From NCBI GenBank assembly GCA_016185205.1, contig JACPOA010000064.1:62001-126000 (forward strand): a DNA stretch of 64,000 bases. The letters run 5' to 3'. A model generated the notes under the pieces. The model had not been told where the DNA came from. It ran no database searches and saw only the letters and a program-made list of their open reading frames with translations. Below are positions 18,185 through 64,000 of this stretch, piece after piece. Each line of letters starts with the position of its first letter. Position 1 is the first letter of the stretch. Source of the stretch: Hyphomicrobiales bacterium (GTDB taxonomy: Bacteria; Pseudomonadota; Alphaproteobacteria; Rhizobiales; Xanthobacteraceae). Made by a program: the position numbers and the translations under genes.

Positions 18185-18418
18185 TGCGCAACCCGTTTGA
18201 AACCTGTGTTTGCGTTGCAATCAGTGTGCCGCGCGCGATTGCCTTCGGCTGCAATGGGGACTAGCTTTCGCCCAAATGGGTTCCAAACTGTCTCCATGTT
18301 TCCTGTCATAGGGAAAGGCTGAGCAAGGCGGCATGAACGGGTTGCGATGACCGGCGGCGCGTCAATGCGACGGCCGTTGTCGCGACGCGTGCCGCCTGCC
18401 CAGCATGAAGGTGAGGCT

Positions 18419-33814: not shown

Positions 33815-35149
33815 ATGAAAACATTCGTCGGTATCGATCTTGGTTCTACGACGACCAAGGCTGTTCTGCTGGACGACAACAGCAACGTCATCGGCCGCGG
33901 CATCACCAATTCGCGCTCGAATTACGCGACTGCCGCCCGTGTCGCCGGCCAGGAAGCCAAGGTCGACGGCCAGTTCACGCTGTTCCGGCGCGCGTTGCGG
34001 GGCACCGGCAAGCTCACGACGCAGCTTGACGATTTCCTGGGCGCGCTCGAACGCGCCTTCCGCCTGGAACAGTTCGTCGATCAGCTCGCCGACCTGGAAC
34101 AGACCTGCCTCGGCTACATCCAGGGCGACCGCTTCAAGACGATGGAAGCGGGCATCAAGGACGCGGTCGGTGAAATTTTCAACCGCTTGCGCAGCGAGGC
34201 TCCCGATCTCTACGCACCCGGGGCCAAACGCAAGTCGGATTTCTTTCGCGACATCGCCGGCTCGCGCTATCACATCCACGCCGAGGAAGTGGCCCGCGCC
34301 GCGACGCTGCCCTACGATCTGCTGATCAACCTCTATGACAAGTCGATCATCGAGGTCGAAAACCGGCCGCCGAAAGGCGACCTCAGCGACAAGTTCCGCC
34401 GCGCTTTGGCGCGCGTGTTAAAAACTGAGCCGTCGATCCAATCGTCGGCGGCGGTCGTGCAAAAGACCATCGAGGATACGCTGGCGATCGATCTGGAAGA
34501 GACCTACCTGGTCGGCACCGGCTATGGCCGCGTTACGCTGCCGTTCTCGAAGGAGCACATCCGTTCGGAAATTCTCTGCCACGGGCTCGGCGCCCACATG
34601 ATGTATCCGAACACGCGTACCGTGCTCGACATCGGCGGCCAGGACACCAAGGGCATCCAGGTCGATGCCAGCGGCATCGTCGAGAATTTCCAGATGAACG
34701 ACCGCTGCGCGGCGGGTTGCGGCCGTTATCTCGGCTATATCGCCGACGAAATGAACATGGGTCTGCACGAACTAGGCCCCATGGCCATGAAGTCCGACAA
34801 GCCGGCGCGCATCAACTCGACCTGCACCGTGTTTGCCGGCGCCGAATTGCGCGATCGCCTCTCGCTCGGAGAAAAACGCGAGGACATCCTGGCCGGTCTG
34901 CACCGCGCCATCATCCTGCGCGCGATCTCGATCATCTCGCGCTCCGGCGGAGTCACCAACGAGTTCACCTTCACCGGCGGCGTCGCCAAGAACGAAGCCG
35001 CCGTGCGTGAGCTGCGCAAGCTCATCAAGGAGAACTACGGCGACGTGGTGATCAACATCGATCCGGAATCGATCTATACCGGCGCACTCGGCGCGGCCGA
35101 ATTCGCGCGCCGGGCGCATTTGGGCCAGGCCGACGGGAGTGCACAATGA
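33815..35149 (+). CDS. bcrA: Benzoyl-CoA reductase subunit A (ATPase/activator)
   Basis: 444 aa. ASKHA-fold ATP-hydrolysing subunit which, with BcrD, carries a bridging [4Fe-4S] cluster and injects electrons into BcrBC at the cost of ATP. N-terminal phosphate-1 motif [31 protein letters not shown] (phosphate-2), cluster Cys in [20 protein letters not shown] and [12 protein letters not shown], and adenosine motif [19 protein letters not shown]. It carries the extra ~150-residue insert that distinguishes BcrA from the shorter BcrD. Ends in an ATGA overlap with bcrD. Confidence 0.95.
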
Positions 35150-35994
35150 CCATCGCAGCAGGCATCGACATCGGCACCTCCACCATCAAGGCGGCACTGT
35201 TCAAGGTCGAGAACGGCAAAGAGGAATGGCTGGCGCGCTATTCGTTGCGCATCCGGCAGCGCGATCCCATGGAACTCGCGCGCGTCGCCTATGACGCCGT
35301 GCTGGAAGACGCCAAGCTTAAGCCCGAGGACGTGAATTACGTCGCGACCACGGGCGAGGCCGAAAGCGTGCCGTTCCATACCGGCCATTTCTATTCGATG
35401 ACGACGCATGCGCGCGGCGCCATCTATCTCGACCCGCAAGCGCGCGCCGCGCTCGACATCGGCGCGCTGCACGGCCGCGCGATCAGCACCGACGAGCGCG
35501 GAAAAGTGCTGAACTACAAGATGACCAGCCAATGCGCATCTGGCTCCGGGCAGTTTCTGGAGAACATCGCCCGCTATCTCGGCATCGCGCAGGAAGAGAT
35601 CGGCTCTTTGTCCTCGCAGGCCGACAATCCGGAAGTCGTGTCCAGCATCTGCGCCGTGCTGGCGGAAACCGACGTGATCAACATGGTGTCGCGCGGCATC
35701 AGCGCCCCCAACATCCTGAAGGGCATCCATCTGTCGATGGCGGCACGGTTATCCAAGCTGCTGAAATCGATTGGCATGGTAAAAGGCGTGGTCATGGTCA
35801 CCGGCGGCCTGGCACTGGACAAGGGCCTGGTTGCCGCGCTTGAAGAGGATATCGGCCATATCAAGGATATGACCACCACGGTGGTGCGCAGCCACCCGGA
35901 CTCCATCTACGCTGGCGCCATCGGCGCGGCGCTGTGGGGCGCCTATCGGTACGACAAACTTGCCGCGCAGGGTAACCTGCCGCGAGCGGCCTGA
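35146..35994 (+). CDS. bcrD: Benzoyl-CoA reductase subunit D (ATPase/activator)
   Basis: 282 aa (about 30 kDa, as in Thauera). Second ASKHA ATPase: [39 protein letters not shown], cluster Cys in [21 protein letters not shown] and [19 protein letters not shown], and [21 protein letters not shown]. Forms the BcrAD heterodimer. Followed after 14 bp by the ferredoxin gene. Confidence 0.95.
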
Positions 35995-40027: not shown

Positions 40028-40041
40028 TTGATCAAGATCAA
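40028..40041 (+). promoter_or_regulatory. Perfect FNR-type box upstream of the Crp/Fnr regulator gene
   Basis: TTGAT-CAAG-ATCAA matches TTGAT-N4-ATCAA at every conserved position. It lies 59 bp before the regulator start codon. Likely autoregulation or control by another FNR protein. No convincing -10 is visible. Confidence 0.7.
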
Positions 40042-41265: not shown

Positions 41266-42249
41266 TTAAGCGCTGGCTTCCGCGAACAGGTTCGCGGTCA
41301 GGCGGCGCGCCAGCGCGGCGGCGGCGAGGCGCCGGTAATTGGCCGAGGCCAGCGTGGTCCGCATCGGCTGCACTTGTTTCTGCACCAGCCGATCGATTGC
41401 CTGTAGCAGCTTGTCGTCGAGCGCTTTTCCGGCGAAGGCGTCGGTGCCGTCGAGCAGGAACGGCCGTGAATTGGTGCCGGTCAGCGCGATGCGCAGCGCG
41501 CCGATGGTCTTGCCCTTGACGGTGAGCGCGACCGCCACGCCGGCGAGCGGAAAGTCGATGGCGCCGCGTGTCCGCACTTTTTCATAGCGCGAGGCCGGCG
41601 GCTTTGCCGGCAGATGCACCGCCACGATCAGTTCGCCCTCGGCCAACGTGAGGTGGGCCTTACCGTCCTCGACATAGAGTTCGCTGAGCGGAATGCGGCG
41701 CTGGCCTTGTGAGCCCGCGATGTCGATCTCGGCGCCGAGCACGAGCAAGGCCGGCGCGAGATCGCCGGAAAAAGCGGCGTGACAGCGCTGGCCCTGCGGC
41801 GCGACGTGACAGGTCTCGCCGCGGTTCTTGAGGCAATAGGCGTTGGCGCTGCGCCACCATTCGCTTTGATTGTAGTAGATGCAGCGGGTATCGAGGCACA
41901 GATTGCCGCCCACCGTTGCCATGGTGCGGTGAGAGGGGCCGGCGATCGCCGCGGCGGCTTGCGCCAGCGCGCGATATTTGTCGGCAATGAGGATGTTGCG
42001 GGCCAGCGCGGCGATGGTGACGCCGGCGCCGATGGTCATGCCCTGGGCGTCGGTCGCGAGCGCGGTCAGTTCGTCGATACCGGACAGATCGACCAGCTGA
42101 TCCGGGCTGGTGATGCCGCGCCGCATGTTGACCAGCAGATCGGTGCCGCCGGCAACGTATCGGCTGCCCGGATGCTTGGCACAGGCCGCAACCGCTTCGT
42201 CGACGGTGCCCGGCTGGGCGAGATGGAAATCGGCCAGGGGTGCGGTCAT
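41266..42249 (-). CDS. hcrB: 4-hydroxybenzoyl-CoA reductase beta subunit (FAD, extra [4Fe-4S])
   Basis: 327 aa from ATG 42249. FAD-binding subunit of the xanthine-oxidase family ([43 protein letters not shown]). It carries the loop with Cys123, Cys139, Cys147 and Cys156 (TRCIYYN...AYCLKN...ETCHVAP...QRCHAAF) that holds the additional [4Fe-4S] cluster special to 4-hydroxybenzoyl-CoA reductase and lets it run in the reductive direction. This loop identifies the enzyme well. Last gene of hcrC-hcrA-hcrB; ATGA overlap with hcrA. Confidence 0.93.
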
Positions 42250-44579
42250 GAGGCGGCCTTCACGCTTTTGGCAAGCCGCGCCTGCCGCCGGCGCTGGGTC
42301 AGCGCCTCCATGACCCGGTCCGGCGTCACCGGTATCTCGTTGAGGTCGAGGCCCAGCGCGTTGGCAATGGCATTGACCAGAGCCGGCGGGAAGCCGGCCA
42401 GCGCGCCTTCGCTGGCTTCCTTGGCGCCGAACGGCCCGTAGGGATCGTGGGTTTCGACGATCTGCACCTCGATCGGCGGGGATTCCGCGATGGTCGGCAT
42501 GCGATATTCGAGAAAGCTGGCATGCGCCGGCAGCCCTTCGAGGTAGCGGGTCTCCTCGCACATCGCTTGGCCCATGCCCATCCAGACCGATCCTTCGACC
42601 TGGCCTTCGACCGCCAGCGGGTTGATGGCGTGGCCGCAGTCGAGCGCCACCCATACCTTGTCGACGGTGACCAGACCGGTCGCATCGTCGACGCTGACTT
42701 CGACCACCTGGGCGGCGTAGCTGAAACCCATGGTCGAGCCGACGGCGCCGCCGCGGTGCTTGCCGCCGTGGAAGTCCGGCGGGCAGGTGAACGAGCCTTT
42801 CACGGTGATCGCGCCCTCATCGACCAGCGCGGCGGCAACCACGTCGGCGAACGACAGACTCGATTGATCGCCGCCGCCGACGCGGAACACTTCGCCGCAT
42901 TCAATGTCTTCGGGGTTCGCCTCGAGTTTCTTGGCGGCGGCCTTGACCAGGATGGTCTTGAGATTCTTGGCGGCATCGATGGCCGCATTGCCCACCATGA
43001 AGGTGATGCGCGACGAATAGGCGCCGTTGTCCTTGGGCGTGATGGCCGTATCGGCGGAGATGACGCGGATGCGGTCGAGCGAAATGTCCAGCGTCTCGGC
43101 CACCGCTATCGCCACCATGGTGGAGGAGCCCTGGCCGATATCGGCGGCGCCGGTGAGCGCCGTCACGCCGCCATCGAAGTCGAGCTTGAGGTTCACCACC
43201 GCGTGCGGCTCGCCGGTGCGGTGGATCGGCTTGGCGGCGCCGCTGACGTAATGCGAGCAGGCCATGCCGAGACCCTTGCCCGGCGGCAGCTTGCCGAGGC
43301 GCGCCCGCCATCCGCTGGCGTGCTCGACGCGGTCGAGGCATTCGCTCAGTCCATAACTGTTGACCACCAGGTCGTTCATGGTGCGGGTCGGCGCCTGCAG
43401 CAGATTGGCGCGCCGCACCGCGAACGGGTCGAGCCCGAGTTCGCGCGCCATGCGGTCGACCAGACATTCGAAGGCATGGCGGGTGTTGACGCCGCCGTGA
43501 CCGCGCATGGCGCCGCAGGGCGGCAAATTGGCGTAGACGCGGTAGCCGTCGTACTTGACCGCGGGAATATCGTAGATGCCGTGCAACAGCGCGCCGGCAT
43601 AGAGAATCGTAATGATGCCGTAACCGGCATAGGCGCCGCCGCGCTGCACCACCTGCAATTCGCAGGCGGTGAAGCGTCCGGTCTTGCTCATGCCGAGCTT
43701 GAGCTTGATATCGGTCTGCGGACGGGCACGGTGGGTGATGAAGGTTTCCTCGCGCGTCAACTGCATCATCACTTTGCCGTTGGCGGCGCGCGCCAGCAGT
43801 GCCGTGACGATCTCGAAATTGAGCGCTTCGACGCGCGCCCCGAAACCGCCGCCGATGAACGGCTTGATCACGCGGATGCGCGAGGAATCCATCTCCAGGC
43901 ATTGCGCGAGCATGAGGTGCAGGTAATAGCCGACCTGCGACACGGTCTGCACCGTGAGTCGGCCGGTCGCCGGATCGTATTCGGAGAGGCTGGCGTGCGG
44001 CTCGATCTGCGCGTGGTTGATCTCGGCGCAGCTGAATTGCTCTTCGCGCACCAGATCGGCGGCGGCAAAACCTTGCGCGACGTCGCCGAACGTATGATGG
44101 ACGTCGCGTTCGAGATTGCCGGGTTTGTCGTCGTGCAGAAGCACCGCGCCCGGCGCGCGCGCGTCCGCGGACGTATAATAGGCGGGCAGTGCCTTCACTT
44201 CGAGTTCGATCAGGCCGAGAGCGCGCTCGGCAGTCTCCTCGTCGATCGCCGCCACCGCCGCGATCGGCTCGCCGCGATAGCGCACGCGCCCGCGCGCCAG
44301 CGGATATTCGTTCATGGCTATGGGCAGCACGCCGTAAGTATGCGCGCAATCCGCGCCGGTCACGATCGCCACCACGCCCTCGATCGCGCGCGCCTTGGAT
44401 ACGTCCAGCTGCACGATGTCGCCATGGCTGACCGGGCTGCGCAGGATGCGTCCGACCAGCGCGTCGGCATGGTCGAGGTCGGCGGTGTAACGGGCGCGGC
44501 CGGTGACTTTCTCGATGCCGTCGATCAACGGAACACCGCGACGCGCGAGCTTGCCGTATGGGGTCGGAGCAGCGGTCAT
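42246..44579 (-). CDS. hcrA: 4-hydroxybenzoyl-CoA reductase alpha subunit (molybdenum)
   Basis: 777 aa. Large Mo-cytosine-dinucleotide subunit of the xanthine oxidase family. Removes the para-hydroxyl of 4-hydroxybenzoyl-CoA as water, giving benzoyl-CoA. Seen: [82 protein letters not shown] and near the C-terminus [29 protein letters not shown], where the Glu in ASEG occupies the catalytic base position. Overlaps hcrC and hcrB by 4 bp each. Confidence 0.93.
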
Positions 44580-45067
44580 GTGAGTTGCCCCGCGGCCGCT
44601 TTGACCGACTCGATGATTTTAACATAGCCGGTGCAGCGGCAGAGATTGCCCGAGAGCGCGGCGCGAATTTCGCCGTCGCTGGGGGCCGGGTTGCGGCGCA
44701 GCAGCGCTTCCGCCGCCATGATCATTCCCGGCGTGCAGAAGCCGCATTGGGTGCCGAGCTTTTCGTGGAAGGCGGTCTGCAATGCGCTCAGCCGCGCCTG
44801 CTTGGCCACGCCTTCGATCGTTTCGACGTGGCGGCCTTCGCAACGCACCGCCAGCGTGATGCAGGATGGCACCGCTTCGCCGTCGACCAGCACGGTGCAG
44901 GCGCCGCACTCGCCGCCGTCGCAGCCGGTCTTCACGCCGGTGAGGTGCGCGACGTCGCGCAGATAGTCGACGAGCAACTGCTTTTCGGCGACCGCGTCTT
45001 CACGCCAGCGCCCATTCAGCTTCAATCTCAGCAGACGTTTTTTCGGCTGCGGGCCCGGGGCATGCAT
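44576..45067 (-). CDS. hcrC: 4-hydroxybenzoyl-CoA reductase gamma subunit (2[2Fe-2S])
   Basis: 163 aa. Two [2Fe-2S] clusters: plant-type [21 protein letters not shown] and the second-domain [16 protein letters not shown] with [12 protein letters not shown]. Carries electrons from ferredoxin to the FAD and Mo centres. First gene of the hcr operon; its start lies 48 bp from the FNR-like site at 45115-45128, on the minus strand. Confidence 0.93.
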
Positions 45068-47468: not shown

Positions 47469-49040
47469 ATGACCGCCTTTCGCGACTATAATGCCGCTGT
47501 CGATTTCGTGGATCGCAACGTCGCCGAGGGACGGGGCGAGAAGACCGCGTATATCGACCCGTCGCGCAACCTGACCTATGGCGAACTGCGCGACACCGCG
47601 GCGCGCATCGGTCCGATGCTGGCGCGCATGGGGATCGAGCCGGAAAACCGCATCGCCCTCGTTATGCTCGACACCGTCGACTTTCCCATCCTGTTCTGGG
47701 GCGCCATCCGGGCGGGAATCGTTCCGGTGCTGGTCAATACCCGGCTGACGGTCGATCAATATCGCTATCTGTTCGAGGATTCGCGCGCCAAGGCGGTTTT
47801 TGTTTCGACCCCGTTGCTGCCGATGGTGCAGGAAGCCGCCAAGGATCTGCCGAACGTCAAGGAAGTTGTCGTGGTGGGCGGCGGCCCGCTGTCGGTGCCG
47901 CGGCTGGACACGCTGTTGGCGGCCGAGAACGAAGGCGCGGCGCCGGCGCAAACCTCGGCCGACGAGACCGCCTACTGGCTCTATTCGTCCGGCACCACGG
48001 GGAACCCGAAGGGCACGATGCATGTGCATTCGACGCCGATGAACATCGCGCGCACCTCGGGGCAGACCCGCATCGGCATCCGTGAAGACGACGTGATCTT
48101 TTCCGCGGCCAAGCTGTTCTTCGCCTATGGCCTCGGCACGATGGTCTGTACGACGTGGGCCGGCGCGACCTTGGTGCTCTATCCGGAGCGACCGACGCCG
48201 CAGACCGTGTTCGAGACGCTGCGTGGCTACCAGCCGACGATATTCTTCGCGGTGCCGACACTCTATGCCGCCATCCTCGCCGATTCCGAATGCACGCGAG
48301 AAAACATGTCGAACCGACTGCGGCTGTGCTTCTCGGCCGGCGAGCCTTTGCCGCCACCTGTCGGCATGGACTGGAAGCAGCGCTTCGGTGTCGACATCGT
48401 GAATGGCGTCGGCTCGACCGAGATGGGACACTTGTTCCTGACCAATCTTCCGGATGCGGTGGAATACGGCACGTCGGGTGTGCCGGTCGAAGGCTACGAT
48501 CTCAGGCTGGTCGACGAAAACGGCAAAGACGTCGCCGACGACGAACTCGGTGAGTTGCTGGTGCGTTGCGAATCGTCGGCGGTCGGATATTGGAACCAGC
48601 GCGAGAAATCGCGCCGCACCTTTATCGGCGAGTGGACCCGCACCGGCGACAAATATCTGCGGCGCGCCGACGGCGTCTACTCCTACTGCGGGCGCACCGA
48701 CGACATGTTCAAGGTCAGCGGCATCTGGGTTTCGCCGTTCGAGGTCGAGGCGGCATTGGTCAGCCATCCGCTCGTGCTCGAGGCGGCGGTGGTTCCGGCC
48801 GAAGACGACAACGGCCTGGTCAAGCCGAAAGCCTATGTCGTGCTCAAGGATTTTGGCGGCAACGACGCCGGCCGCGCGATGTACGAAGAACTCAAGGTTC
48901 ACGTCAAACGCTCGATCGGTCCCTGGAAATATCCGCGCTGGATCGAATTCGTCGACAGCCTGCCGAAGACCGCGACCGGAAAAGTCCAGCGCTACATGCT
49001 GCGCGACAAGGCGATCAATGCAAAGGGTGCAGACCGATGA
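47469..49040 (+). CDS. Benzoate-CoA ligase family protein (benzoate / 4-hydroxybenzoate-CoA ligase)
   Basis: 523 aa, the length of BadA/HbaA-type ligases. N-terminal [34 protein letters not shown] is the family hallmark. P-loop [104 protein letters not shown] and the catalytic-Lys region [15 protein letters not shown]. Activates an aromatic acid to its CoA thioester. Divergent hcr genes make 4-hydroxybenzoate a good candidate, but benzoate or another substrate cannot be excluded. The next gene overlaps its stop. Confidence 0.88.
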
Positions 49041-50233: not shown

Positions 50234-50238
50234 AGACC

Positions 50239-51396: not shown

Positions 51397-51398
51397 GC

Positions 51399-52184: not shown

Positions 52185-52199
52185 AACAGGAGTAGAGCT

Positions 52200-52946: not shown

Positions 52947-52982
52947 TTCCAACAACAGCAGTCATCGAGAGGATCAAGAACC

Positions 52983-53996: not shown

Positions 53997-54944
53997 ATGG
54001 TCATGAAGCTCAGTCAACTTCGCAATTTCACCGCCGTGGTCGAGGCCGGCGCGGTCCGCCAGGCGGCCAAGAATCTCAACTTGTCGCAGTCGTCGGTCAC
54101 CAAGAGCATCCAGCAGCTGGAAGACGATCTCGGCGTCGAGCTGTTGCATCGCGGCGCCCACGGCGTCGCCGCGACCGAGGCGGGCAAGGCGCTGTTCGCG
54201 CGCATCAAGACCGTCGAGGCCGAGCTGCGCCACGCCCGCAACGACGTTGAAACCATCCAGGGCGCCGGCATGGGCGAAATCCGCGTCAGCGCCTCGCCGA
54301 GCGTCGCCACCGGCCTGCTGCCGCGCTCGGTCATCGCCTTCCAGCGCACGCATCCGCGCGTCAGTTTCCACATCCTGGAGGGTGTCTATCCCGACATGCT
54401 ACCGGCGATCCGCACCGGCGATCTCGATCTCGCCATTTGCCTGGTGCCCGGCCACCCCCGCGACGACAGCCTGAGTTTCATCAGCCTGGTCAAGGACCGG
54501 CTGGTGCCGGCGGTGCGCGCCGACCATCCCGTGCTCGCCCGCCGCAAGCTGAGCCTCGCCGATCTCACCGCGCTCGATTGGATCATCTATCGCCGCAGCC
54601 ATACCGGGCTCGACGTGTTCGAGCAGACCTTCATCGCCAACCGGCTGGAGCCGCCGAAGAGCACGATCGAATGCACTTCGTTCGCCTGCGCGCTGGCGCT
54701 GGTCGAGAACGGCGACTATGTCACGCTGGTGCCCTCGCAGATTTTCGCCGGCAACCGCAACACGCCGTCGCTCGCCCCGGTGCTGCTCGATGCGCCGATG
54801 CAGCCCTGGCAGGTGGTGGCGATTTCGCGCGCCCAGCGCGAGCTGTCGGCGGTCTGCCTGGCCTTTCTCGCCGAGCTGCAGAAAACCGCGGCCAAGATCG
54901 ATTTGCCGATCAGCGGTGCGCGGCGGCCGCGGCCGCGGTCCTGA
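53997..54944 (+). CDS. LysR family transcriptional regulator
   Basis: 315 aa from ATG 53997, or 313 from ATG 54003. N-terminal winged helix MKLSQLRNFTAVVEAGAVRQAAKNLNLSQSSVTKSIQQLEDDLGVELLHRGAHGVAATEAG, then a periplasmic-binding-protein-like effector domain (GEIRVSASPSVATGLLPRSVIAFQRTHPRVSFHILEG). It is transcribed toward the transhydroxylase operon, and a perfect palindrome lies 15 bp after its stop, so it may regulate that operon with an aromatic or other co-inducer. C-terminus Arg/Pro-rich. Confidence 0.88.
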   Translation: MVMKLSQLRNFTAVVEAGAVRQAAKNLNLSQSSVTKSIQQLEDDLGVELLHRGAHGVAATEAGKALFARIKTVEAELRHARNDVETIQGAGMGEIRVSASPSVATGLLPRSVIAFQRTHPRVSFHILEGVYPDMLPAIRTGDLDLAICLVPGHPRDDSLSFISLVKDRLVPAVRADHPVLARRKLSLADLTALDWIIYRRSHTGLDVFEQTFIANRLEPPKSTIECTSFACALALVENGDYVTLVPSQIFAGNRNTPSLAPVLLDAPMQPWQVVAISRAQRELSAVCLAFLAELQKTAAKIDLPISGARRPRPRS

Positions 54945-54958
54945 AAAGCCATCGCTCT

Positions 54959-54979
54959 GTGATCGATATTATCGATCAC
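54959..54979. promoter_or_regulatory. Perfect palindrome, candidate operator
   Basis: GTGATCGAT (54959-54967) and ATCGATCAC (54971-54979) are exact inverted repeats around ATT. It is placed 8 bp before the FNR-type box of the transhydroxylase operon and just after the LysR gene. Candidate operator for that LysR protein or another dimeric regulator; a terminator is unlikely because no T-run follows. Confidence 0.6.
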
Positions 54980-54986
54980 TCTAACG

Positions 54987-55026
54987 TTGATATGTATCAA
55001 TAAGCGATAGCCGGAAAGCCTATAAT
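54987..55026 (+). promoter_or_regulatory. FNR-type class II promoter of the transhydroxylase operon
   Basis: TTGAT-ATGT-ATCAA (54987-55000) is a perfect FNR consensus, and a perfect -10 TATAAT follows at 55021-55026. The predicted transcript start near 55033 puts the box centre at about -40, the standard class II activation position. The leader to ATG 55116 is about 80 nt. Confidence 0.8.
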
Positions 55027-55115
55027 CGCCCGCGCAAGGCGGTCGCGCCCGTCCGGCTCCGGCGGGCGAGCGACGGCCCATATGCGCATCGATCATACGG
55101 GTGAGGAAGCGCACG

Positions 55116-58100
55116 ATGTTCTCGCAGCTCAAACTGTCCGTCATTCTGTTCGCGCTCACGCTGCTGCTGCGATACGTCCGCTGGCGCCATCCGCATTTCG
55201 CGGCGCGCCTGAAGGAGCGCAATCTGGTGGCGCAGATCAAGGCGCGCGACGAGGGCACCGGCCGCTGGATCGAGATCCGCGACGGCAACATCAACTCGCG
55301 CGCCGGCCAGCATGCCAAGCCCGATATCACGCTGTCCTTCAAGAATGCCGCGACCGGCGCCTCCCTACTGACGCCGCCGATCAACTGGCTCGATCAGATC
55401 AACGCGCAGAAGGATTTTACCCTCGGCGTCGACGGTCCGGAAGACCTGACCAACTGGTTCGCGCAGACCCTCATGAAGATGCAGACCGCGCACTGGACTT
55501 TTGGCACGCCGATGCCGGACGGCACCATGCGCTATTGCAACATGGCGAACGGCGGCCCGCTCTTCGTCACCGTCAAGGACGGCAGGATTATCCGTACCAC
55601 GCCGATCGATTTCGACGAAACCGATCCGCAGCCGTGGACGATTCAGGCGCATGGCATGAATTTCACGCCGCCGCGCAAGACCACGCTCGCCCCGCACGGG
55701 CAGACCAGCCGGTCGACGATCTATTCGCCCGACCGTTTGCTCTACCCGATGAAGCGCGTCGACTTCGACCCGAACGGCACGCGCAATCCGCAGAACCGTG
55801 GCAAGTCGAAATATGTCCGCATCTCGTGGCCGGAGGCGCTCGACATGGTCGCCGTCGAGATCAAACGCGTGAAGCACGATCATGGCCCGGGCGCCATGAC
55901 CGTCTCGCACGGCTCGCATCATACCTGGGGCCATATCGGCTATTACCTCAGCGCTTTGTACCGCTTCAGCAATGCCGTCGGTCACACGCCCGTCCATCAT
56001 AATCCTGACAGCTGGGAAGGCTGGTACTGGGGCGCCGCGCACCACTGGGGCTACACGATGCGCGTCGGCCAGAGTGAAACTTACGGCACCGTCGAGGACT
56101 TGCTGCAAAACTGCGAGATGGTGGTGTTCTGGTCGGCCGATCCGGAAACCAACAGCGGTTCCTATGGTGCCCAGGAAGGCACGGTGCGCCGGCAGTGGCT
56201 GAAGAAGCTCGGCATCAAAGTCGTGCACATCGATCCGCATTACAACTCGTCCGCCCAATTCCTGCCGGGCAAATGGATTTGCCCGAAGCCGACGACCTCG
56301 CCGGCGCTCGCCCTGGCGATCGCCTACGTTTGGATCAAGGAAGGGCTTTACGACAAGGAATACGTCAAGACGCACACGACCGGCTTCGACGCCTGGAAGG
56401 CCTATGTCATGGGCGAGAGCGACGGCGTGGCCAAGACGCCGGAATGGCAGGAGAAGGAAACAGGCGTTCCAGCCAAGGACGTGCGTGCGCTGGCGCGCGA
56501 ATGGGGCACCAAGCGCACTTATCTCGGTTGCGGCGGTTGGGGCAACGGCCACGGCGGCGCCTGCCGCAATCAGACCGGCATCCAATGGGCGCGCACCATG
56601 GTGTGTCTGATCGCGATGCAGGGACTGGGCAAGCCCGGCATCAACATGGGCAATCTGCAATGGGGCTCCCCGGTCGATCTCAACTTCTATTTCCCGGGCT
56701 ACGCCGACGGCGGCATGTCCGGCGATATCGAGAAGACGGCGATGGCGGTCGAGCTTTTCCAGCGCATGCCACAGCTGCCGACGGTGAACACGCCAAATCA
56801 GAGGATTCCGCGCATCTTCCTGCCTGAAGCGATTATCGAAGGGAAAACCGACGGCGGCTACCCGTGGACCGGTAAATCGATCGAGTCGCAGTTCGCCAAG
56901 TTCAGTTATCCGGCGCCCGGTCATGCGCCGGTGCGGATGATGTTCAAATACGGCGGTTCGCTAATCCCGACCATGAACAACACCAACCGCCACGTGAAGA
57001 TGTTCCAGTCGCCGAACCTCGAGTTCGTCGTCAGCCAGGCCATCTGGTTCGAGGGCGACACCAAATTTGCCGACGTCATCCTGCCCGCCTGCACCAATTT
57101 CGAGCGTGCGGACATCAGCGAATGGGCAGGTCTTGGCGGTTACGGCCATCACGGCCAGCAGCAGCTCAATCATCGTGTCATTATCTTCCAAGCGCCGGCG
57201 ATCGAGCCGCTGGGCGAGTCGAAATCAGACTTCTGGATCTTCAACGAGATCAGCAAGCGGCTCGGGCTTGCCAACTACTTCTCCGAGGGCGTCAACGAAA
57301 TCGACTGGGTCAAGCGTCTGTTCGATGCCTCCGACCTACCGAAAAAGATTTCCTGGAAGAAGTTCATGAAGCGCGGTTACTACGTCGTGCCGGCGGAGAA
57401 GGAGCACCTGCGCATACCGGTCTCCTTCCGCTGGTTCTGGGAAAACCGTAAGAAGGACGTTCCGGAGCCGCATCCATTGCCTTCCGATTACTCGGTGGAG
57501 TTCCTCAAAGGCTTGCAGACCCAATCGGGCAAGCTTGAGTTCGAAAGCAACAGTCTCAAGCGCGTGAATGACCCCGAGCGGCCGCCGGTGGTCGAATACG
57601 TGCCGTCGTGGGAGGGCCCGCAGTCGGGCGAGTTGTTCCGGAAATATCCGCTGCAGCTGCTCACGCCGCACAGCAAGTACAGCTTCCACACCCAAAGCGA
57701 CGGCAAGGATAGCTTCCTGCTCAACATCCCGGACCACCGGGTGAAGGTGAAGGATTGGTACTATTGGACCGTGCGCATGAATTCGCAGGATGCCGCGGCG
57801 CGCGGCATCAAGCAGCACGATCTGGTCAAGGTCTACAACGATCGTGGCGCGGTGATCTGCGCGGCGGTGCTTACCGAGCGGCTTTCGCCCGGCGTCGCCC
57901 ACAGCTACGAATCCTCGGCGCTGTACGAACCGATGGGCGAGCCCGGCCGGTCGGTGGACCGCGGTGGCGTGGTCAATCTGCTGATGCCGCATCGCTCGCA
58001 GACCAAGTCGACGCATGCGCTCGCCGGTTCGCAAGGCCTCGTCGAAATCGTACCGTGGGACGGCAAGACCGAACACATCTCGGAGGCTTTCGCCGCCAAG

Positions 58101-58169
58101 ACGAAGGAGACGAAAGCAAAGAAAGTCAGCACGCGGCGCAAACCGTCACCGCTGGTGCCGGCGAAATGA
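55116..58169 (+). CDS. Transhydroxylase-like molybdopterin oxidoreductase with N-terminal SCP2-like domain
   Basis: 1017 aa from ATG 55116 (GAGGAAG 6 bp upstream; GTG 55101 would add 5 residues). Residues ~5-22 are a hydrophobic helix; ~25-125 resemble an SCP2 lipid-binding domain ([15 protein letters not shown]...[13 protein letters not shown]...[23 protein letters not shown]). From ~138 it matches pyrogallol-phloroglucinol transhydroxylase large subunit: [22 protein letters not shown] (His268/269), HNPDSWEGW (Asp298 and Ser299, the latter the expected Mo ligand), [21 protein letters not shown], and a C-terminal dinucleotide domain to VEIVPWDGK. Pelobacter TthL is ~875 aa and lacks the N-terminal part. 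Resorcinol hydroxylase is another relative. Substrate inferred to be a phenol, perhaps lipid-bound. Confidence 0.83.
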
Positions 58170-58242
58170 CGACTGACGTGAATTCCATGGTCCGGTCCCA
58201 TGCCGGGGCCGGGCCGTGGCCGCAACAGGAGGAGACGATCTA

Positions 58243-58656
58243 ATGGCTTATCTGTTCAAGCAAGGAGAGCTGCCGTCGCTGATCGACGCCAAACAGGCGC
58301 GCGAGCGAATTTTCTTCGTCAACCAGGAACTTGCCAACATCGACGACATGCTGGCCGGCGTCATGTACTACAAGAAGGATGCGGCCTCGCCGCTGCATCT
58401 GCACAAGAACTGCGAGCATTTTTATTTCATCATCACCGGCAAGGCGACGGTGGAATCCGACGAAGGCGTGCGCCCGGTCGGTCCCGGCGACATGATCTTC
58501 ATCCCGGCCGAGGAGAAGCATCGCCTGCGCGCCACCGAACCGCTGTTCTATTTCGAGTGGCAGGCGCCCAACCGTTTCAAGACCACGATCCTCGAAGGCA
58601 CCGACGACGACCTGCGCTGGGAGCGCAAGGACGGCAAAACGTGGATCCAGACCTGA
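58243..58656 (+). CDS. Cupin-domain protein
   Basis: 137 aa from ATG 58243 (AGGAGGAG about 8 bp upstream). Cupin motif 1 with metal ligands: SPLHLHKNCEHFYFIITGKATVES (two His, Glu/His), and motif 2: VGPGDMIFIPAEEKHRLRATEP (His). A single-domain metal-binding cupin that could be an isomerase, dioxygenase-like or accessory protein. Lies between the large and small subunit genes of the transhydroxylase-like enzyme, so it is probably produced with it. Confidence 0.82.
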   Translation: MAYLFKQGELPSLIDAKQARERIFFVNQELANIDDMLAGVMYYKKDAASPLHLHKNCEHFYFIITGKATVESDEGVRPVGPGDMIFIPAEEKHRLRATEPLFYFEWQAPNRFKTTILEGTDDDLRWERKDGKTWIQT

Positions 58657-58686
58657 CTTCATCCGGCCATTAGAGGAAAAACGATC

Positions 58687-59031
58687 ATGTCGCTCACATT
58701 CATCGATACCAACAAACTCCCGAAAAAGCCCTCGACCGGCGCAGGCGAGGTCACCGAGGTGCTGAACCAGGCCCTGTGCGGGGCCAAGAACGTGCATGGC
58801 TCGCTGCGCTGGCTCAAATCGGCCGAGACGTTCAAGGCCGATGCCGCCGGCAAGCACCAGCTCATCTACCTGATGGACGGCAAGGGCAGCATCCGGCTCA
58901 ACGATAAGGCTTACGACGTCGAGCAGGGTGGCGGGCTTTATCTCGGCCCGACCGAAAGCGCGACCATCCAGGCGGCCAGCGGCGCGGCACTCAAGTTGTT
59001 TCATCTGGTGGTGCCGCAAATACCGAAGTGA
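58687..59031 (+). CDS. Second cupin-like protein, metal site incomplete
   Basis: 114 aa. Cupin-fold beta pattern: NVHGSLRWLKSAETFKADAAGKHQLIYLMDGKGSIRLNDKAYDVEQGGGLYLGPTESATIQAASGAALKLFHLVVPQIPK. Only one of the usual His ligands (GKHQLIYLMDG) is in place and motif 2 lacks His (GPTESATI), so metal binding is doubtful. Possibly a structural or substrate-binding partner of the neighbouring cupin. 30 bp separate the two genes. Confidence 0.72.
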   Translation: MSLTFIDTNKLPKKPSTGAGEVTEVLNQALCGAKNVHGSLRWLKSAETFKADAAGKHQLIYLMDGKGSIRLNDKAYDVEQGGGLYLGPTESATIQAASGAALKLFHLVVPQIPK

Positions 59032-59108
59032 AGATTGCCCGGCCGGGACGCGGCCCGCGTGGCCCGCGTCTCGGACTGGCGGAGTTCTGAAACCATGCGA
59101 GTTAAGCG

Positions 59109-59942
59109 ATGAAAAAATGGAACCTGATCATCGACGTCGCCGAGTGCACCAATTGCAATCTGTGCACGCTCGCGGCCATGGATGAATATGTCGGCAACGA
59201 CTTCCCCGGCTATTCGGCGCCGATGCCCAAGCACGGCCACAGGTGGATCGACATCCTGCAGAAGGAGCGCGGCCAGCTGCCGTCGATCGACATCGCCTAC
59301 GTGCCGACGCTGTGCAATCACTGCGACAACGCGCCCTGCGTCGCCAAAGGCGGCGGCGCGGTCAGCAAGCGCGACGACGGCATCGTGCTGATCGATCCGG
59401 TCAAGGCCAAGGGCCGCAAGGACCTGGTCGAGTCATGTCCTTACGGTCATATCTGGTGGAACGAAGAGCTCAAACTTCCGCAAGCCTGGACCTTCGACGC
59501 TCACCTCATCGACCAAGGCTGGAAGCAGACGCGCGGGCAGCAGTCGTGCCCGACCGCCGCCATGCGCTCGCTCTGCGTGGAGGACGAGGAGATGGCGAGC
59601 ATCGCAAGCGAGCAGAAGCTCGAGGTCATGAAGCCGGAGCTCGGCACCAAGCCGCGTGTCTACTACAAGAATTTGTGGCGCTACACGTCATGCTTCATCG
59701 CCGGCTCGGTGTCGGCGAAAGCGAAAGGCGCCGTCGACTGCGTCGAGGGCGCCAGCGTGTGGCTGCTCAAGAATGGCGCCGTGGTGGCGCAAGCCACGAC
59801 CGACAATTTCGGCGACTTCAAATTCGACCGGCTGGACGAGAACTCGGGCGACTATGTCGTGGAGATTTCGGCCGGCAAAGCCAAGAAGTCGGTGCCGGCG
59901 AAGCTCGGCGCCAGCCTCAGTCTCGGCGAGATCAGGCTCTAA
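59109..59942 (+). CDS. Transhydroxylase small-subunit-like Fe-S protein with degenerate cluster motifs
   Basis: 277 aa; TthS of Pelobacter is ~274 aa. Strong family signatures: MDEYVGNDFPGYSAPM, HGHRWIDILQKERGQLPSIDIAYVPTLCNHCDNAPCVAKGGGAV, DDGIVLIDPVKAKGRKDLVESCPYG, ELGTKPRVYYKNLWRY, and a C-terminal ~70-residue transthyretin/Ig-like beta domain (VEGASVWLLKNGAVVAQATTDNFGDFKFDRLDENSGDYVVEIS). Cys retained: 13, 16, 19, 69, 72, 77, 110, 147, 156. Compared with TthS, the fourth Cys of motif 1 is Ala23, and the later C-x2-C reads Trp127-x2-Asp130. At least one cluster is therefore probably lost. Partner of the 55116-58169 product. Confidence 0.83.
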   Translation: MKKWNLIIDVAECTNCNLCTLAAMDEYVGNDFPGYSAPMPKHGHRWIDILQKERGQLPSIDIAYVPTLCNHCDNAPCVAKGGGAVSKRDDGIVLIDPVKAKGRKDLVESCPYGHIWWNEELKLPQAWTFDAHLIDQGWKQTRGQQSCPTAAMRSLCVEDEEMASIASEQKLEVMKPELGTKPRVYYKNLWRYTSCFIAGSVSAKAKGAVDCVEGASVWLLKNGAVVAQATTDNFGDFKFDRLDENSGDYVVEISAGKAKKSVPAKLGASLSLGEIRL

Positions 59943-59945
59943 GAG

Positions 59946-60395
59946 GTGCTCGCCGGCCTCTACCAGACGCTCGCGCCGCTGACCGAGGCGCTGCTGCGCA
60001 TCGCCGTCGGGCTGGCGATGGTGCCGCACGGCCTGCGCATGACCTTCGGATTTTTTCCCACCACCGGCCAGCCGCTGCGCAATATCGGCATGCTGGCCGA
60101 CTACCTGAACAAGCAGGGCTACCGCCCGGGCAAGCCTTTGGCGCTGGCGATCTCGGCCACCCAGCTGGTGTGCGGACCGCTGGTTGCGCTCGGCCTGTTC
60201 ACCCGTCCGGCCGCTGTGCCGCTCATTTTGTTTCTGCTGGTGACCAATATCGAGCGCTGGCGCGTCGGCCGCTATTTCTGGAACCAGCTCGGGCTCGAAT
60301 ACACGCTGATGTGGACGATTGCCGCGCTCTTCGTGCTGGCGCATGGCGGCGGCGCCTATTCGCTCGACAACCTGCTGTTCGGGCGCGCGTTCTAG
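59946..60395 (+). CDS. DoxX family membrane protein
   Basis: 149 aa from GTG 59946, 3 bp after the Fe-S subunit stop. Four hydrophobic helices: EALLRIAVGLAMVPHGLRMTFGFF, PLALAISATQLVCGPLVALGLFTRPAAVPLILFLLVTNI, and LEYTLMWTIAALFVLAHGGGAYSLDNLLFG, the DoxX pattern. DoxX proteins are small inner-membrane proteins named after a quinol oxidase subunit; most have no proven reaction. Last gene of the transhydroxylase-like operon, so membrane or quinone linkage of that enzyme is a possible role. Confidence 0.82.
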   Translation: MLAGLYQTLAPLTEALLRIAVGLAMVPHGLRMTFGFFPTTGQPLRNIGMLADYLNKQGYRPGKPLALAISATQLVCGPLVALGLFTRPAAVPLILFLLVTNIERWRVGRYFWNQLGLEYTLMWTIAALFVLAHGGGAYSLDNLLFGRAF

Positions 60396-60419
60396 CGCTC
60401 TACACCCTCTGCAAAACCC

Positions 60420-60461
60420 TTGATTTCGGTCAAACCGGGCGGTGCCGGATGGCCCTAAATT
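60420..60461 (+). promoter_or_regulatory. FNR-type promoter of ubiTUV
   Basis: TTGAT-TTCG-GTCAA (60420-60433) is a full FNR-type dyad; a -10-like TAAATT is at 60456-60461. With the box centre at -41.5, transcription would begin at 60468, which is the A of the ubiT ATG, predicting a leaderless or nearly leaderless message. In E. coli ubiTUV expression is also FNR-dependent. Confidence 0.7.
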
Positions 60462-60467
60462 GCGCCC

Positions 60468-61016
60468 ATGCCAAGGTCCCCACGTGCCGAGCCGCCCGCC
60501 TCCTCATTGCGGGCGCTGTTGCAGAATATTCCCGGCTTCCTGCTGGCGGCCGCGCCGCTGGCGGTGATCCAGCCGATTCTGTCGCGCATCGCCTCGCATG
60601 TGGCGACGGATCGCCCCGAGCTGTTCGCGCGCCTGGGCGTGCACGCGCGCAAGCGCTTCCTGATCGACCCGACCGACCTGCCGTTCGTGCTGGTGTTGTC
60701 GCCCGACAATAACCGCCCGCATCTGCGCGCCTATCGCCGCACCGAAAATCCCGCCCATCACGCGGCCATCTCCGGCAAATTCTTCATCCTGCTCGACATG
60801 ATCGACGGCACGCTTGACGGCGATGCGTTGTTCTTCACCCGCGATCTGCGCGTCTCCGGCGACACCGAAGCGGTGGTGGCGCTGCGCAATGCGCTCGACG
60901 ATTTCGAGGGCAGCGCGCTCGACAGCGTGGTGTCTTCGTTCGGACCGCTGGCCAAGCCCGCCGCGCTTGCGGTCTCGGCCTTGCGGTCCATGCAAGCGAG
61001 TCATCGTCATGCCTGA
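60468..61016 (+). CDS. ubiT: UbiT-like SCP2 lipid-binding protein
   Basis: 182 aa. N-terminal hydrophobic segment LRALLQNIPGFLLAAAPLAVIQPILSRIA, then an SCP2 fold: FLIDPTDLPFVLVLSPDNNRPHLRAYRR, AAISGKFFILLDMIDGTLDGDALFFTRDLRVSGDTEAVVALRNALDDFEGSALDS. UbiT binds quinone-like lipids in the O2-independent ubiquinone pathway. Identity comes from the fold and from the directly overlapping ubiU and ubiV. No Shine-Dalgarno sequence stands in front of ATG 60468, in keeping with a leaderless transcript; a TTG downstream near 60502 is an alternative. Confidence 0.85.
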   Translation: MPRSPRAEPPASSLRALLQNIPGFLLAAAPLAVIQPILSRIASHVATDRPELFARLGVHARKRFLIDPTDLPFVLVLSPDNNRPHLRAYRRTENPAHHAAISGKFFILLDMIDGTLDGDALFFTRDLRVSGDTEAVVALRNALDDFEGSALDSVVSSFGPLAKPAALAVSALRSMQASHRHA

Positions 61017-62019
61017 GACTTACATTCGTCCCGAACTGGTCTGTCCGGCCGGCACGCCGGCGGCCTTGCGCACGGCGGTCGATGCCGGCGCCGACGCGGT
61101 CTATTGCGGTTTCCAGAATGAGACCAATGCGCGGAATTTCCCCGGCCTGAATTTCACGCCGGCCGAACTCGAACAGTCGCTCGGCTACGCCCATGCGCGC
61201 AACGCCAAGGTGCTGCTGGCGGTCAATACCTTTCCGCCGGCCGGCAAGTTCGAGCTGTGGCGCGACGCCGTCGATATCGCCGCCAGGCTCGGCGTCGACG
61301 CCATGATCGTGGGCGACATGGGCGTCGCCGACTACGCCGCGAAGACCTATCCGAACTTAAGGCTGCATCTCTCGGTGCAGGCCGGCGCCTCGTCGCCGGA
61401 AGCGATCCGCTTCTATTGCCAGGCCTTCGGCATCAAGCGCGTGGTGCTGCCGCGCATCCTCACCGTTGCCGAGATCGCCGAGTTGCACCGCGAAATCCCG
61501 TGCGAGATCGAAGCCTTCATCTTCGGCAATATCGGCATGATGGCGGAAGGCCGTTGCAGCCTGACCAATTACGCCACCGGCCTGTCGACTAATATGGACG
61601 GTGTCTGCTCGCCGGCCGCCGATGTGCACTATGAGGACGACAAGGAGGGCAACCTGACCACCCGGCTCGGGCCCTTCATGATTGATTGCTTCGCCGGCGG
61701 CGAAAACGCCGGCTATCCGACCATCTGCAAGGGCCGCTATACCTGCAGTGCCAGCCCGGAGGCCTACTACGCCTTCGAGGAGCCGGTCAGCCTCAATCTG
61801 TCGGCGCTGTTGCCCGACCTCATGCGCGCGGGCGTGACCGCGCTCAAGATCGAAGGCCGCCAGCGCAGCCGCGCTTACGTCAAGGCCGTGGTCGCGGCGT
61901 TCCGCAAGGCGGTCGACGACGTCATGGCGGGCAACGCGCCGGCGCTCGCCAATCTGCTGGCGCTGACCGAAGGACACCGCGAGACGCAAGGCGCCTATCG
62001 CAGCAAGGCATGGAGATGA
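61009..62019 (+). CDS. ubiU: UbiU-like U32 family protein, one cluster Cys changed
   Basis: 336 aa. U32 peptidase-like TIM barrel: PELVCPAGTPAALRTAVDAGADAVYCGFQNETNARNFPGLNF, LHLSVQAGASSPEAIRFYCQAFGIKRVVLPR, EAFIFGNIGMMAEGRCSLTNYATG, GVCSPAADVHYE, IDCFAGGENAGYPTICKGRYTCSASPEAY and LKIEGRQRSRAYV. UbiU and UbiV together hydroxylate ubiquinone precursors without O2. Family members hold a [4Fe-4S] cluster with a C-x6-C-x16-C pattern; here the first position is Gly176, with Cys183 and Cys200 retained, and extra Cys at 227, 240 and 246. Overlaps ubiT by 8 bp and ubiV by 4 bp. Confidence 0.87.
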   Translation: MPETYIRPELVCPAGTPAALRTAVDAGADAVYCGFQNETNARNFPGLNFTPAELEQSLGYAHARNAKVLLAVNTFPPAGKFELWRDAVDIAARLGVDAMIVGDMGVADYAAKTYPNLRLHLSVQAGASSPEAIRFYCQAFGIKRVVLPRILTVAEIAELHREIPCEIEAFIFGNIGMMAEGRCSLTNYATGLSTNMDGVCSPAADVHYEDDKEGNLTTRLGPFMIDCFAGGENAGYPTICKGRYTCSASPEAYYAFEEPVSLNLSALLPDLMRAGVTALKIEGRQRSRAYVKAVVAAFRKAVDDVMAGNAPALANLLALTEGHRETQGAYRSKAWR

Positions 62020-62942
62020 CCGTGCAGGAGCGGGCAGGCAGCGTCACGCTGGGACCGGTGCTGTTCAACTGGCAGCCGGAGAAGTGGCGCGACTTCTATT
62101 TCCGCATCGCCGACGAGGCGCCGGTCTCTACCGTGTATATCGGAGAGACCGTCTGCTCCAAGCGCGCGCCGCTGATCGAGCCGTATTATGCGGCGGTCGC
62201 CGAACGGCTGGCTGCGGGTGGCAAGACAGTGGTGTTTTCCTCGCTGTCGGAAGTGGTGAGCAAGCTCGACCGCAAGCTAGCCGAACAGATCTGCACCGCC
62301 GAAGGTTTCCTGGTCGAAGCCAATGACGGCTCCGCGCTGATGTATCTGAAGGGGCGGCCGCACCACGTCGGCCCGCTAATGAACGTCTATAACGAGGCCA
62401 CGGTTAAGTTCCTGGCCGGCATCGGCGCCAAGAATATCTGCCTGCCGGTCGAGATGCCGGCGAAATCCGTCGGCGCGCTATGCGAGGCCACGCGTGATCT
62501 TGACGTCAGCATCGAAGTGCAGGTATTCGGCCGCCAGTCGCTGGCGCTGTCGGCGCGCTGCTATCATGCCCGCGCCCACGGCCGCACCAAGGACTCTTGC
62601 CGCTTCGTCTGCGAGGAGGACCCCGACGGGCTGACGCTGAGCACGATCGACGACCGCAAGTTCCTCACCGTCAACGGCATCCAGACGCTGTCCTACGAAT
62701 ACCTCAATTTGGTGCGCGAAGTGCCGAGCTTACGCAAAATGGGCGTGTCGCGCTTCCGGTTGTCGCCGCATACGCTCGACATGGTGGGGATCGCCACGAT
62801 TTTTTCCGGCGTGGTCGAGGGCAAGCTTGCCGCCGATGAGGCGGCCGCGTTGCTCGAAGCGATGAAGCCGGACGCGCCGTTCGCCAACGGGTTCTATCAC
62901 GGCAAGCCCGGTTACACCTGGAACACCGCGAGCGTGCACTGA
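62016..62942 (+). CDS. ubiV: UbiV-like U32 family protein
   Basis: 308 aa from ATG 62016 (ATGA overlap). Partner of UbiU. Sequence: [103 protein letters not shown] and [37 protein letters not shown]. The four expected cluster Cys are present: one in GETVCSKRA and a C-x12-C-x3-C set, the spacing of E. coli UbiV. So the [4Fe-4S] site is intact here, unlike in the neighbouring UbiU-like protein. Confidence 0.9.
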
Positions 62943-62974: not shown

Positions 62975-64000
62975 ATGTCGCAGCCGGCCGAGAGGCGCGC
63001 GGGCAAGCCCGCGATGTTGAAGGATTCGGCGTTTGTGTGGGAGGACCCGCTCGATCTGGAGGGCGAGCTCAGCGAAGACGAGCGCATGGTGCGCGACACC
63101 GCGCGCGGTTTTTCGCAGGATTATCTGATGCCGCGCGTCGTGGCCGACTATCGCGAGGAGACGTTCGACGCGCAGATGCTGCCGGAGATGGGCGAGCTCG
63201 GCCTGCTGGGTGCAACCATTCCGGAGGAGTATGGTGGCGCTGGCTTGGGTTACGTCAGCTACGGCCTGATCGCGCGCGAACTCGATCGCGTCGATTCGGG
63301 ATACCGCTCGACCATGTCAGTGCAGTCGTCGCTGGTGATGTATCCGATCTATGCCTATGGCAGCGAGGCGCAGCGCAAGAAATATCTGCCGAAGTTGGCG
63401 GCCGGCGAAATGATCGGCTGCTTCGGCCTGACCGAACCGGATTACGGCTCCGATCCCGGCTCGATGGTCACGCGCGCCGAGAAGGTCGCCGGCGGCTACA
63501 AGTTGAACGGCGCCAAGACCTGGATCTCCAACGCGCCGGTCGCGCACATCGCTATCGTGTGGGCCAAGCTCGACGGCGTCATCCGCGGCTTCATCGTCGA
63601 GCGGGCTACCCAAGGCTTCTCCACGCCCAAGATCGAGGGCAAGCTCAGCTTGCGCGCCTCCATCACCGGCGAGATCGTGCTGGAGGACTGCGTCATCCCG
63701 GAAGAAAACATTTTGCCGAATGTGAAAGGGCTGGCCGGTCCGTTCGGCTGCCTCAACAATGCGCGCTACGGCATCGCCTGGGGCGCCATGGGCGCGGCGG
63801 AATTCTGCTGGCACGCGGCGCGGCAATACACGCTCGACCGCAAGCAGTTCGGCCGTCCGCTCGCAGCCAATCAGCTCATTCAGAAGAAGCTCGCCGACAT
63901 GCAGACCGAAATCGCGCTCGGGCTGCAAGGCGTGCTGCGGCTCGGCCGCATGCTGGAGGCCGGGCGCGCGGCGCCGCCGTCGATCTCGCTGATGAAGCGC
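62975..64000 (+). CDS. gcdH: Glutaryl-CoA dehydrogenase (5' part, runs off the window)
   Basis: First 342 residues from ATG 62975 (GGAG about 8 bp upstream); the frame is open to the window edge. FAD-dependent decarboxylating dehydrogenase: glutaryl-CoA to crotonyl-CoA and CO2. Signature [66 protein letters not shown] contains the substrate-binding Arg-Ser typical of glutaryl-CoA dehydrogenase; then [21 protein letters not shown] and [48 protein letters not shown]. The catalytic Glu would lie beyond the edge. It completes the route from 3-hydroxypimelyl-CoA. It may be transcribed with ubiTUV (32-bp gap). Confidence 0.9.

Follow-up and report, generated by a model that had tools for sequence, protein, structure and literature searches.

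SCP2-fused transhydroxylase genes next to ubiTUV

We analyzed a 64,000-nucleotide stretch of a Hyphomicrobiales genome (family Xanthobacteraceae; contig JACPOA010000064.1, positions 62,001 to 126,000), referred to here as the window, and focused on a predicted molybdenum (Mo) enzyme, TthLS, encoded toward its end. Between window positions 53997 and 62942, a single run of genes occupies the forward strand. It opens with a LysR-type regulator (53997..54944; Pfam LysR_substrate and HTH_1), a homologue of which also lies 5' of the large subunit in several relatives. The large subunit, TthL (55116..58169, 1017 amino acids [aa]), belongs to the DMSO reductase family (PF21423, Molybdopterin, and Molydop_binding) and is followed by two cupins (58243..58656, matching Cupin_2, with its start picked by comparison with homologues; and 58687..59031, matching the cupin-type family AraC_binding at 27 bits, cut-off 21), a TthS-like small subunit (59109..59942), and a DoxX-family membrane protein (59946..60395; PF07681). 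Next come ubiT (60468..61016), ubiU (61009..62019), and ubiV (62010..62942), each above the cut-off of its model (NF047962, NF047963, and NF047965, respectively), and an acyl-CoA dehydrogenase gene that runs off the window on the same strand (62975..64000; FadE model, 228 bits, and glutaryl-CoA dehydrogenase model NF045552, 219 bits, both under cut-off). Two FNR-type boxes accompany these genes on the forward strand: a perfect match (54987..55000) begins 129 bp upstream of the TthL ATG, and a site with one mismatch (60420..60433) begins 48 bp upstream of ubiT. Pfam, NCBIfam, and comparison with structure 4v4c thus confirm the arrangement given in a preliminary description of this DNA, in which a transhydroxylase-like unit is followed in the same direction by ubiTUV and each unit has its own FNR box.

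Both subunits are homologous to those of pyrogallol-phloroglucinol transhydroxylase. TthL residues 138 to 985 align with pyrogallol hydroxytransferase 4v4c_A (955 bits), so that the whole catalytic part is homologous, and TthS aligns with 4v4c_B (267 bits). TthL differs from the known enzyme in carrying an additional N-terminal domain (residues 1 to 125; 55116..55490, forward strand), which has an SCP2 fold and resembles UbiJ-SCP2. Its top Foldseek match is to SdsA1-type alkylsulfatases, which also bear an SCP2-like domain; in those enzymes, however, the catalytic domain is unrelated and the SCP2-like part lies near the C terminus (residues 533 to 654).

A distinct group of fused enzymes with altered catalytic and cluster residues

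We scanned named genomes and examined the best 80 of 573 relatives; more exist. These 80 share 59 to 90% identity with TthL. In 78 of them the match begins at query residue 25 or earlier, and the other two (L092 and L103) are cut by contig ends. Carriers belong to the Hyphomicrobiales and Rhodospirillales, nearly all as metagenome-assembled genomes (MAGs), and also include Beta-, Gamma-, and Deltaproteobacteria, Dehalococcoidia (MAGs), Moorella sulfitireducens, and Gracilibacter. Neither Moorella nor the Dehalococcoidia are known to make ubiquinone. We also viewed four plasmid copies, three of them from annotated records, at 52 to 57% identity. On a Sinorhizobium terangae plasmid (L033, 15001-19439), the match falls into two pieces, residues 2 to 141 and 145 to 981, separated by about 1.5 kb; either the gene is split or it carries an insertion, precisely where the SCP2 part meets the catalytic part. 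A search with PF21423 over 398 genomes of the phylum returned two matches, including the window's own, which we did not use as a count because this 55-residue model seems too short for a first look. A survey of the class with a non-fused enzyme (from locus L060) found relatives in 5 of 250 genomes, its own included, all in reading frames of 993 to 1047 aa.

A tree was built from 100 fused enzymes, none of them shorter than 960 aa, and 10 non-fused ones. It separates the two sets with a support of 1.0, read from the unrooted tree as a FastTree local value, the sole kind of support used. Rooting on the Pelobacter enzyme lowers this value to 0.585 (1.0 when rooted on the window's enzyme), which we take to be an artefact of re-rooting. 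The separation is consistent with a single fusion event.

The active site of the fused enzymes is conserved in part. In transhydroxylase (TH) numbering, we take the active-site set to be H144, R153, D174, W176, W354, Y404, C557, and Y560; the residues at these numbers agree with 4v4c_A. The window's TthL retains H144, D174, W176, Y404, and Y560 and departs from the known enzyme at three positions (Arg153 to Tyr, Trp354 to His, and Cys557 to Leu). H144, S175, W176, and Y404 are identical in all 100 fused and all 10 non-fused enzymes, and D174 is kept in 99 of the former and all of the latter. Position 153 divides the two sets completely: it is Tyr or Trp in 100/100 fused enzymes versus Arg or Lys in 10/10 non-fused ones. 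Position 175, which we assume to be that of the Mo-ligand serine, is Ser in 110/110. A serine ligand of Mo characterizes the RhL/PgtL group (PMC10100899), and all of these enzymes share it. The same source places the resorcinol hydroxylase RhL/RhS of Azoarcus anaerobius in this Ser-ligated group, which is the point of likeness between it and TthLS.

The small subunit has changed as well. We take the TH small subunit to hold 12 cysteines that ligate three [4Fe-4S] clusters, with a ligand pairing that we likewise presume. A table of these cysteines across 107 small subunits shows that positions 13, 19, 69, 72, 77, 110, and 147 are Cys in every sequence and position 16 in 103. Positions 23, 127, 130, and 143, by contrast, are not Cys in the window's TthS. 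All four are kept in 17 of the 107 (eight that pair with non-fused enzymes and nine that pair with early-branching fused ones), Cys 127 and 130 are jointly lost in 90, 23 and 143 are variably lost, and all four are missing from 52, the window's among them. Across the set, the loss looks stepwise. Going by the ligand pattern of ferredoxin-like subunits, the four presumably bind one cluster, and judging from these residues one [4Fe-4S] cluster has probably gone from the small subunit, a difference from pyrogallol-phloroglucinol transhydroxylase that would count mildly against an obligate exporter of electrons.

Two further observations concern Mo enzymes near the fused ones. Fused and non-fused transhydroxylases lie 7 to 14 kb apart on one contig in three genomes (L131; G1002:C9, 41957/58017; and G1006:C85, 5179/19625). 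A second Mo enzyme is encoded near the fused transhydroxylase at eight loci (L057, L065, L095, L100, L108, L109, L131, and L134); at L065, the one scanned, it is formate-dehydrogenase/PhsA-like.

Association with phloroglucinol genes and with ubiTUV

The anaerobic degradation of phloroglucinol by four enzymes (PGR, DPGC, TfD, and TAL) has been proven biochemically in Clostridium scatologenes (PMC10470551). At nine loci of the best 80, spread over four broad groups, at least three of the four corresponding genes stand beside the fused enzyme (L074, L080, L106, L115, L117, L123, L128, L131, and L132), as judged with the proteins of L123 itself as queries. The order at L123 is cyclohydrolase, cupin, lyase, reductase, dehydrogenase, fused large subunit, and small subunit. 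Its lyase scores 416 bits with NF053538, just below the cut-off of 430, and its reductase and dehydrogenase, which belong to large families, are named by their neighbours rather than by score. When the tree is rooted among the non-fused enzymes, an early-branching group of fused enzymes contains six of these nine loci, and a late Xanthobacteraceae group contains the other three.

The same link appears at the level of whole genomes. In a sample of 149 genomes of the family, DPGC (called as a cyclohydrolase at an E value of up to 1e-60) is present in 20/28 carriers of the fused enzyme versus 15/121 non-carriers (p 1.2e-9). Counted by genus, it is found in 11/16 carrier genera versus 3/31 others (p 6e-5), and the association stands when the window's own genus is left out (p 4e-9). 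Family samples of 149, 148, and 149 genomes were treated as one draw, since their genome identifiers agree. Carriers exclude three genomes whose matches are DMSO-reductase-like at 31 to 35% identity (G037, G046, and G082) and include one with a 131-residue fragment (G049), without which the result is the same.

Homologues of PGR, DPGC, TfD, and TAL all occur in the window's own genome, the first three named by homology alone. One contig (C109) holds a cluster of homologues of DPGC, cupin, reductase, dehydrogenase, and amidohydrolase, at 50 to 60% identity to the L123 proteins, along with what is by eye an IclR-type regulator; another (C38) encodes a lyase that scores 491 bits, above the NF053538 cut-off of 430. 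Homologues of the C. scatologenes pathway thus occur both beside fused enzymes in other groups and in the window's genome, where they are scattered over contigs; the likeness was drawn through the L123 proteins and the NF053538 model.

The association of the fused enzyme with ubiTUV behaves differently. In the same family sample, ubiU is present in 9/28 carriers versus 33/120 others (p 0.65) and in 9/16 carrier genera versus 14/31 others (p 0.55), and leaving out the window's own genus brings p to 1.0. Among 391 family genomes, the enzyme was called in 46 (E up to 1e-150) and ubiU in 101 (E up to 1e-60); 14/46 carriers have ubiU versus 87/345 others (p 0.47). Co-occurrence with ubiU in the family thus gives no sign that the transhydroxylase is a component of the UbiTUV pathway. 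Neither ubiT, ubiU, nor ubiV was found beside the fused enzyme at any of the best 80 loci (E 1e-10, 60% cover; 45 loci with at least 5 kb downstream). The preliminary description had proposed to test whether the fused enzyme accompanies ubiUV more than polyphenol genes; the family counts favour the polyphenol genes. It had also held that a home mainly beside resorcinol or gallate catabolic genes would tell against its view, and this is half borne out, as phloroglucinol genes adjoin the enzyme at the nine loci above and not at most.

The relation to ubiTUV is local. The order TthL-TthS-DoxX-ubiT-ubiU-ubiV is kept in the window and in two other species of the genus, each with the acyl-CoA dehydrogenase following: G683 (84 to 95% identity; on two contigs, the break falling within the large subunit) and G669 (76 to 88% identity; no cupins). 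Chance adjacency is therefore rejected, because both the gene order and a similar divergence along the block recur in these genomes. A single pathway operon is rejected too: a second FNR box stands between DoxX and ubiT, and the relatives with DoxX after the small subunit include loci that show no ubiTUV. Two further members of the genus (G618 and G695) carry the two gene sets at separate places, and in G069 the fused enzyme and ubiTUV are 23 kb apart.

Seen from the side of ubiTUV, the neighbourhoods are mixed. Among 14 ubiTUV loci compared with the window genes, six have a Mo or aromatic neighbour and eight show none, several of these on short contigs. In one genome (G111; locus L060, G111:C34), ubiTUV is close to a non-fused transhydroxylase, and the intervening genes look by eye like those of a TRAP transporter; L060 also holds homologues of window genes at 1505-2191 (transglutaminase-like by eye), 4822-5358 (MogA), and 5374-5937 (DUF2478-like by eye). 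The G069 ubiTUV genes adjoin homologues of 4-hydroxybenzoyl-CoA reductase and a CoA ligase, and those of G049 are directly followed by a 63% homologue of a 936-aa Mo enzyme of the window (L168, 11664-14435). In the window this 936-aa enzyme is encoded at 18347-21154 and is weakly PhsA-like. We read these neighbourhoods as a clustering of O2-independent functions and not as a shared pathway.

The setting of the transhydroxylase in the window is an anaerobic aromatic island. It includes benzoyl-CoA reductase subunits A and D (33815..35994, forward strand; TIGR02259, 784 bits, cut-off 578; TIGR02261, 458 bits, cut-off 313), the alpha and gamma subunits of 4-hydroxybenzoyl-CoA reductase (42249..45067, reverse strand; TIGR03194, 1295 bits, cut-off 995; TIGR03193, 280 bits, cut-off 258), a ligase of the benzoate-CoA ligase family (47469..49040, forward strand; TIGR02262, 817 bits, cut-off 375), and acyl-CoA dehydrogenase and enoyl-CoA hydratase genes. 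An SDR protein encoded in the island (33815-35994, 42249-45067, and 47469-53840) has BadH as its best model, under cut-off.

FNR-type sites with at most one mismatch are frequent in the window (9 observed versus 1.0 expected). Such a site occurs within 250 bases upstream of ubiT at 12 of 14 loci examined; among 30 loci of the fused large subunit, it does so only in the window and G683, and two-mismatch sites occur at three more. The transhydroxylase seems to have come under FNR control locally, within the window's clade. Other FNR-like boxes lie at 40028-40041 and at six other window sites; one perfect box stands just 5' of a gene at 40100 that is Crp/Fnr-like by eye (no NCBIfam match at 1e-40).

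A candidate role in polyphenol catabolism

Taken together, these results make it fairly probable that TthLS works in polyphenol catabolism, as a two-subunit, probably cytoplasmic, Ser-ligated Mo enzyme of the pyrogallol-phloroglucinol transhydroxylase kind, with ubiTUV separate. The fused enzymes are best read as an undescribed subfamily of Mo transhydroxylases that has been recruited, in this genome, into an FNR-controlled anaerobic aromatic island also holding ubiTUV. This assignment is built on homology, fold, co-occurrence, and residues, as seen in sequences and models, and from it we infer the roles of the SCP2 domain, the cupins, and DoxX as well as the direction of the reaction and its substrate. 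The SCP2 domain may capture a hydrophobic or membrane-partitioned phenol or dock the enzyme at the membrane; the Mo site would then, independently of O2, shift a hydroxyl group on a phenol ring or from one ring to another, yielding a product for reductase, cyclohydrolase, dehydrogenase, and lyase steps. As a separate FNR-controlled unit, ubiTUV would make ubiquinone without O2 for the same anaerobic life, so that the two units would have an island and a type of regulator in common but no pathway. Among the open-licence papers listed, titles and abstract openings yielded no description of an SCP2-fused transhydroxylase and nothing on anaerobic Mo-dependent hydroxylation of alkylresorcinols.

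Several observations weigh against a role in polyphenol catabolism. Related genomes are not independent, so the p values for co-occurrence are descriptive and not proof. Fewer than three phloroglucinol genes are seen at 71 of the best 80 loci (35 loci have 5 kb on both sides), and the matches at L131 (37 to 40% identity), which are to large enzyme families, are weak as names. Within the genus, DPGC does not track the enzyme (7/8 carriers versus 14 of the 20 listed non-carriers, of which at least 20 exist; p 0.63), ubiU does (6/8 versus 2 of these 20; p 0.002), and the conserved block joins the transhydroxylase to ubiTUV. One member, G683, has the enzyme and no DPGC was seen in its genome, which is 88% complete, and in the window's genome the transhydroxylase (on C29) is not adjacent to the phloroglucinol genes on C109 and C38. 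Finally, two burkholderial plasmid copies adjoin genes for a VOC protein, an FAH-type hydrolase, and an OmpW protein, which points to a different route; the copy from Burkholderia stagnalis is also beside an annotated acyl-CoA synthetase. The VOC protein had no Pfam match at E 1e-8 and is therefore not called a dioxygenase.

A special form of this explanation holds that the substrates are phenolic lipids, such as alkylresorcinols or alkyl phenols, which the SCP2 domain would load before phloroglucinol-type or other ring-cleavage enzymes take over. We regard it as possible and somewhat doubtful. The SCP2 fold, the Tyr or Trp at position 153, the acyl-CoA synthetase and OmpW proteins beside the burkholderial copies, and the proximity of fused and non-fused enzymes in three genomes are all consistent with it; on the other hand, no window gene is specific to lipid side chains, and the SCP2 domain may merely dock the enzyme to membranes. 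In its fullest version, which we offer tentatively, TthLS would use Mo, and no O2, to hydroxylate the ring of phenolic lipids held in membranes: its SCP2 domain would extract the lipid and present the phenol head to a site remodelled at position 153, and anaerobic cleavage of the ring could follow. The substrates in this genus may include a quinone-related phenol.

It is less likely that TthLS catalyzes a net oxidation of the resorcinol hydroxylase type, in which water would supply the oxygen and electrons would leave via TthS for the quinone pool. The SCP2 domain or DoxX would make contact with the quinone, and ubiquinone would be acceptor rather than product. RhL, of the same Ser-ligated group, serves anaerobic respiration (PMC10100899), several relatives also have DoxX after the small subunit, and ubiTUV would provide the acceptor. 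However, a TthS without all four cysteines of one of its three [4Fe-4S] clusters would be odd for an electron exporter, and the unit has no other candidate for a quinone-binding membrane subunit.

The quinone link that the preliminary description had proposed survives in part. The SCP2 domain is real, which makes a hydrophobic phenol a fair guess, and adjacency to ubiTUV extends to two more species of the genus; what lacks support is quinone hydroxylation or the supply of a hydroxyl donor for UbiUV. The window's ubiT, ubiU, and ubiV resemble the O2-independent ubiquinone pathway in model scores and in having the FNR box of most relatives and differ from it in their place, in an aromatic island next to a transhydroxylase. 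Gene order and within-genus association, the similarity to UbiJ-SCP2, the FNR boxes at both units, and an oxygen donor of UbiUV that was not known as of 2019 (PMC6747719) all speak for a quinone role. Against it stand E. coli, which makes ubiquinone anaerobically with UbiT, UbiU, and UbiV (same source) and gave no match to PF21423 in a control search that is itself insensitive, and the genus members that hold both gene sets apart. Given also the lack of family association, neighbourhoods without ubiTUV at all of the best 80 loci, and carriers such as Moorella and Dehalococcoidia, we reject it as the best reading and consider it very unlikely that TthLS hydroxylates a ubiquinone precursor or supplies a hydroxyl donor for UbiUV.

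The fused lipid-binding domain marks a distinct subfamily of Mo transhydroxylases that spans several phyla, and through it O2-independent polyphenol chemistry would reach many soil and marine bacteria. The subfamily would also offer a clean test case for SCP2 function, combining a solved relative, a removable domain, and a residue swap that needs explanation.

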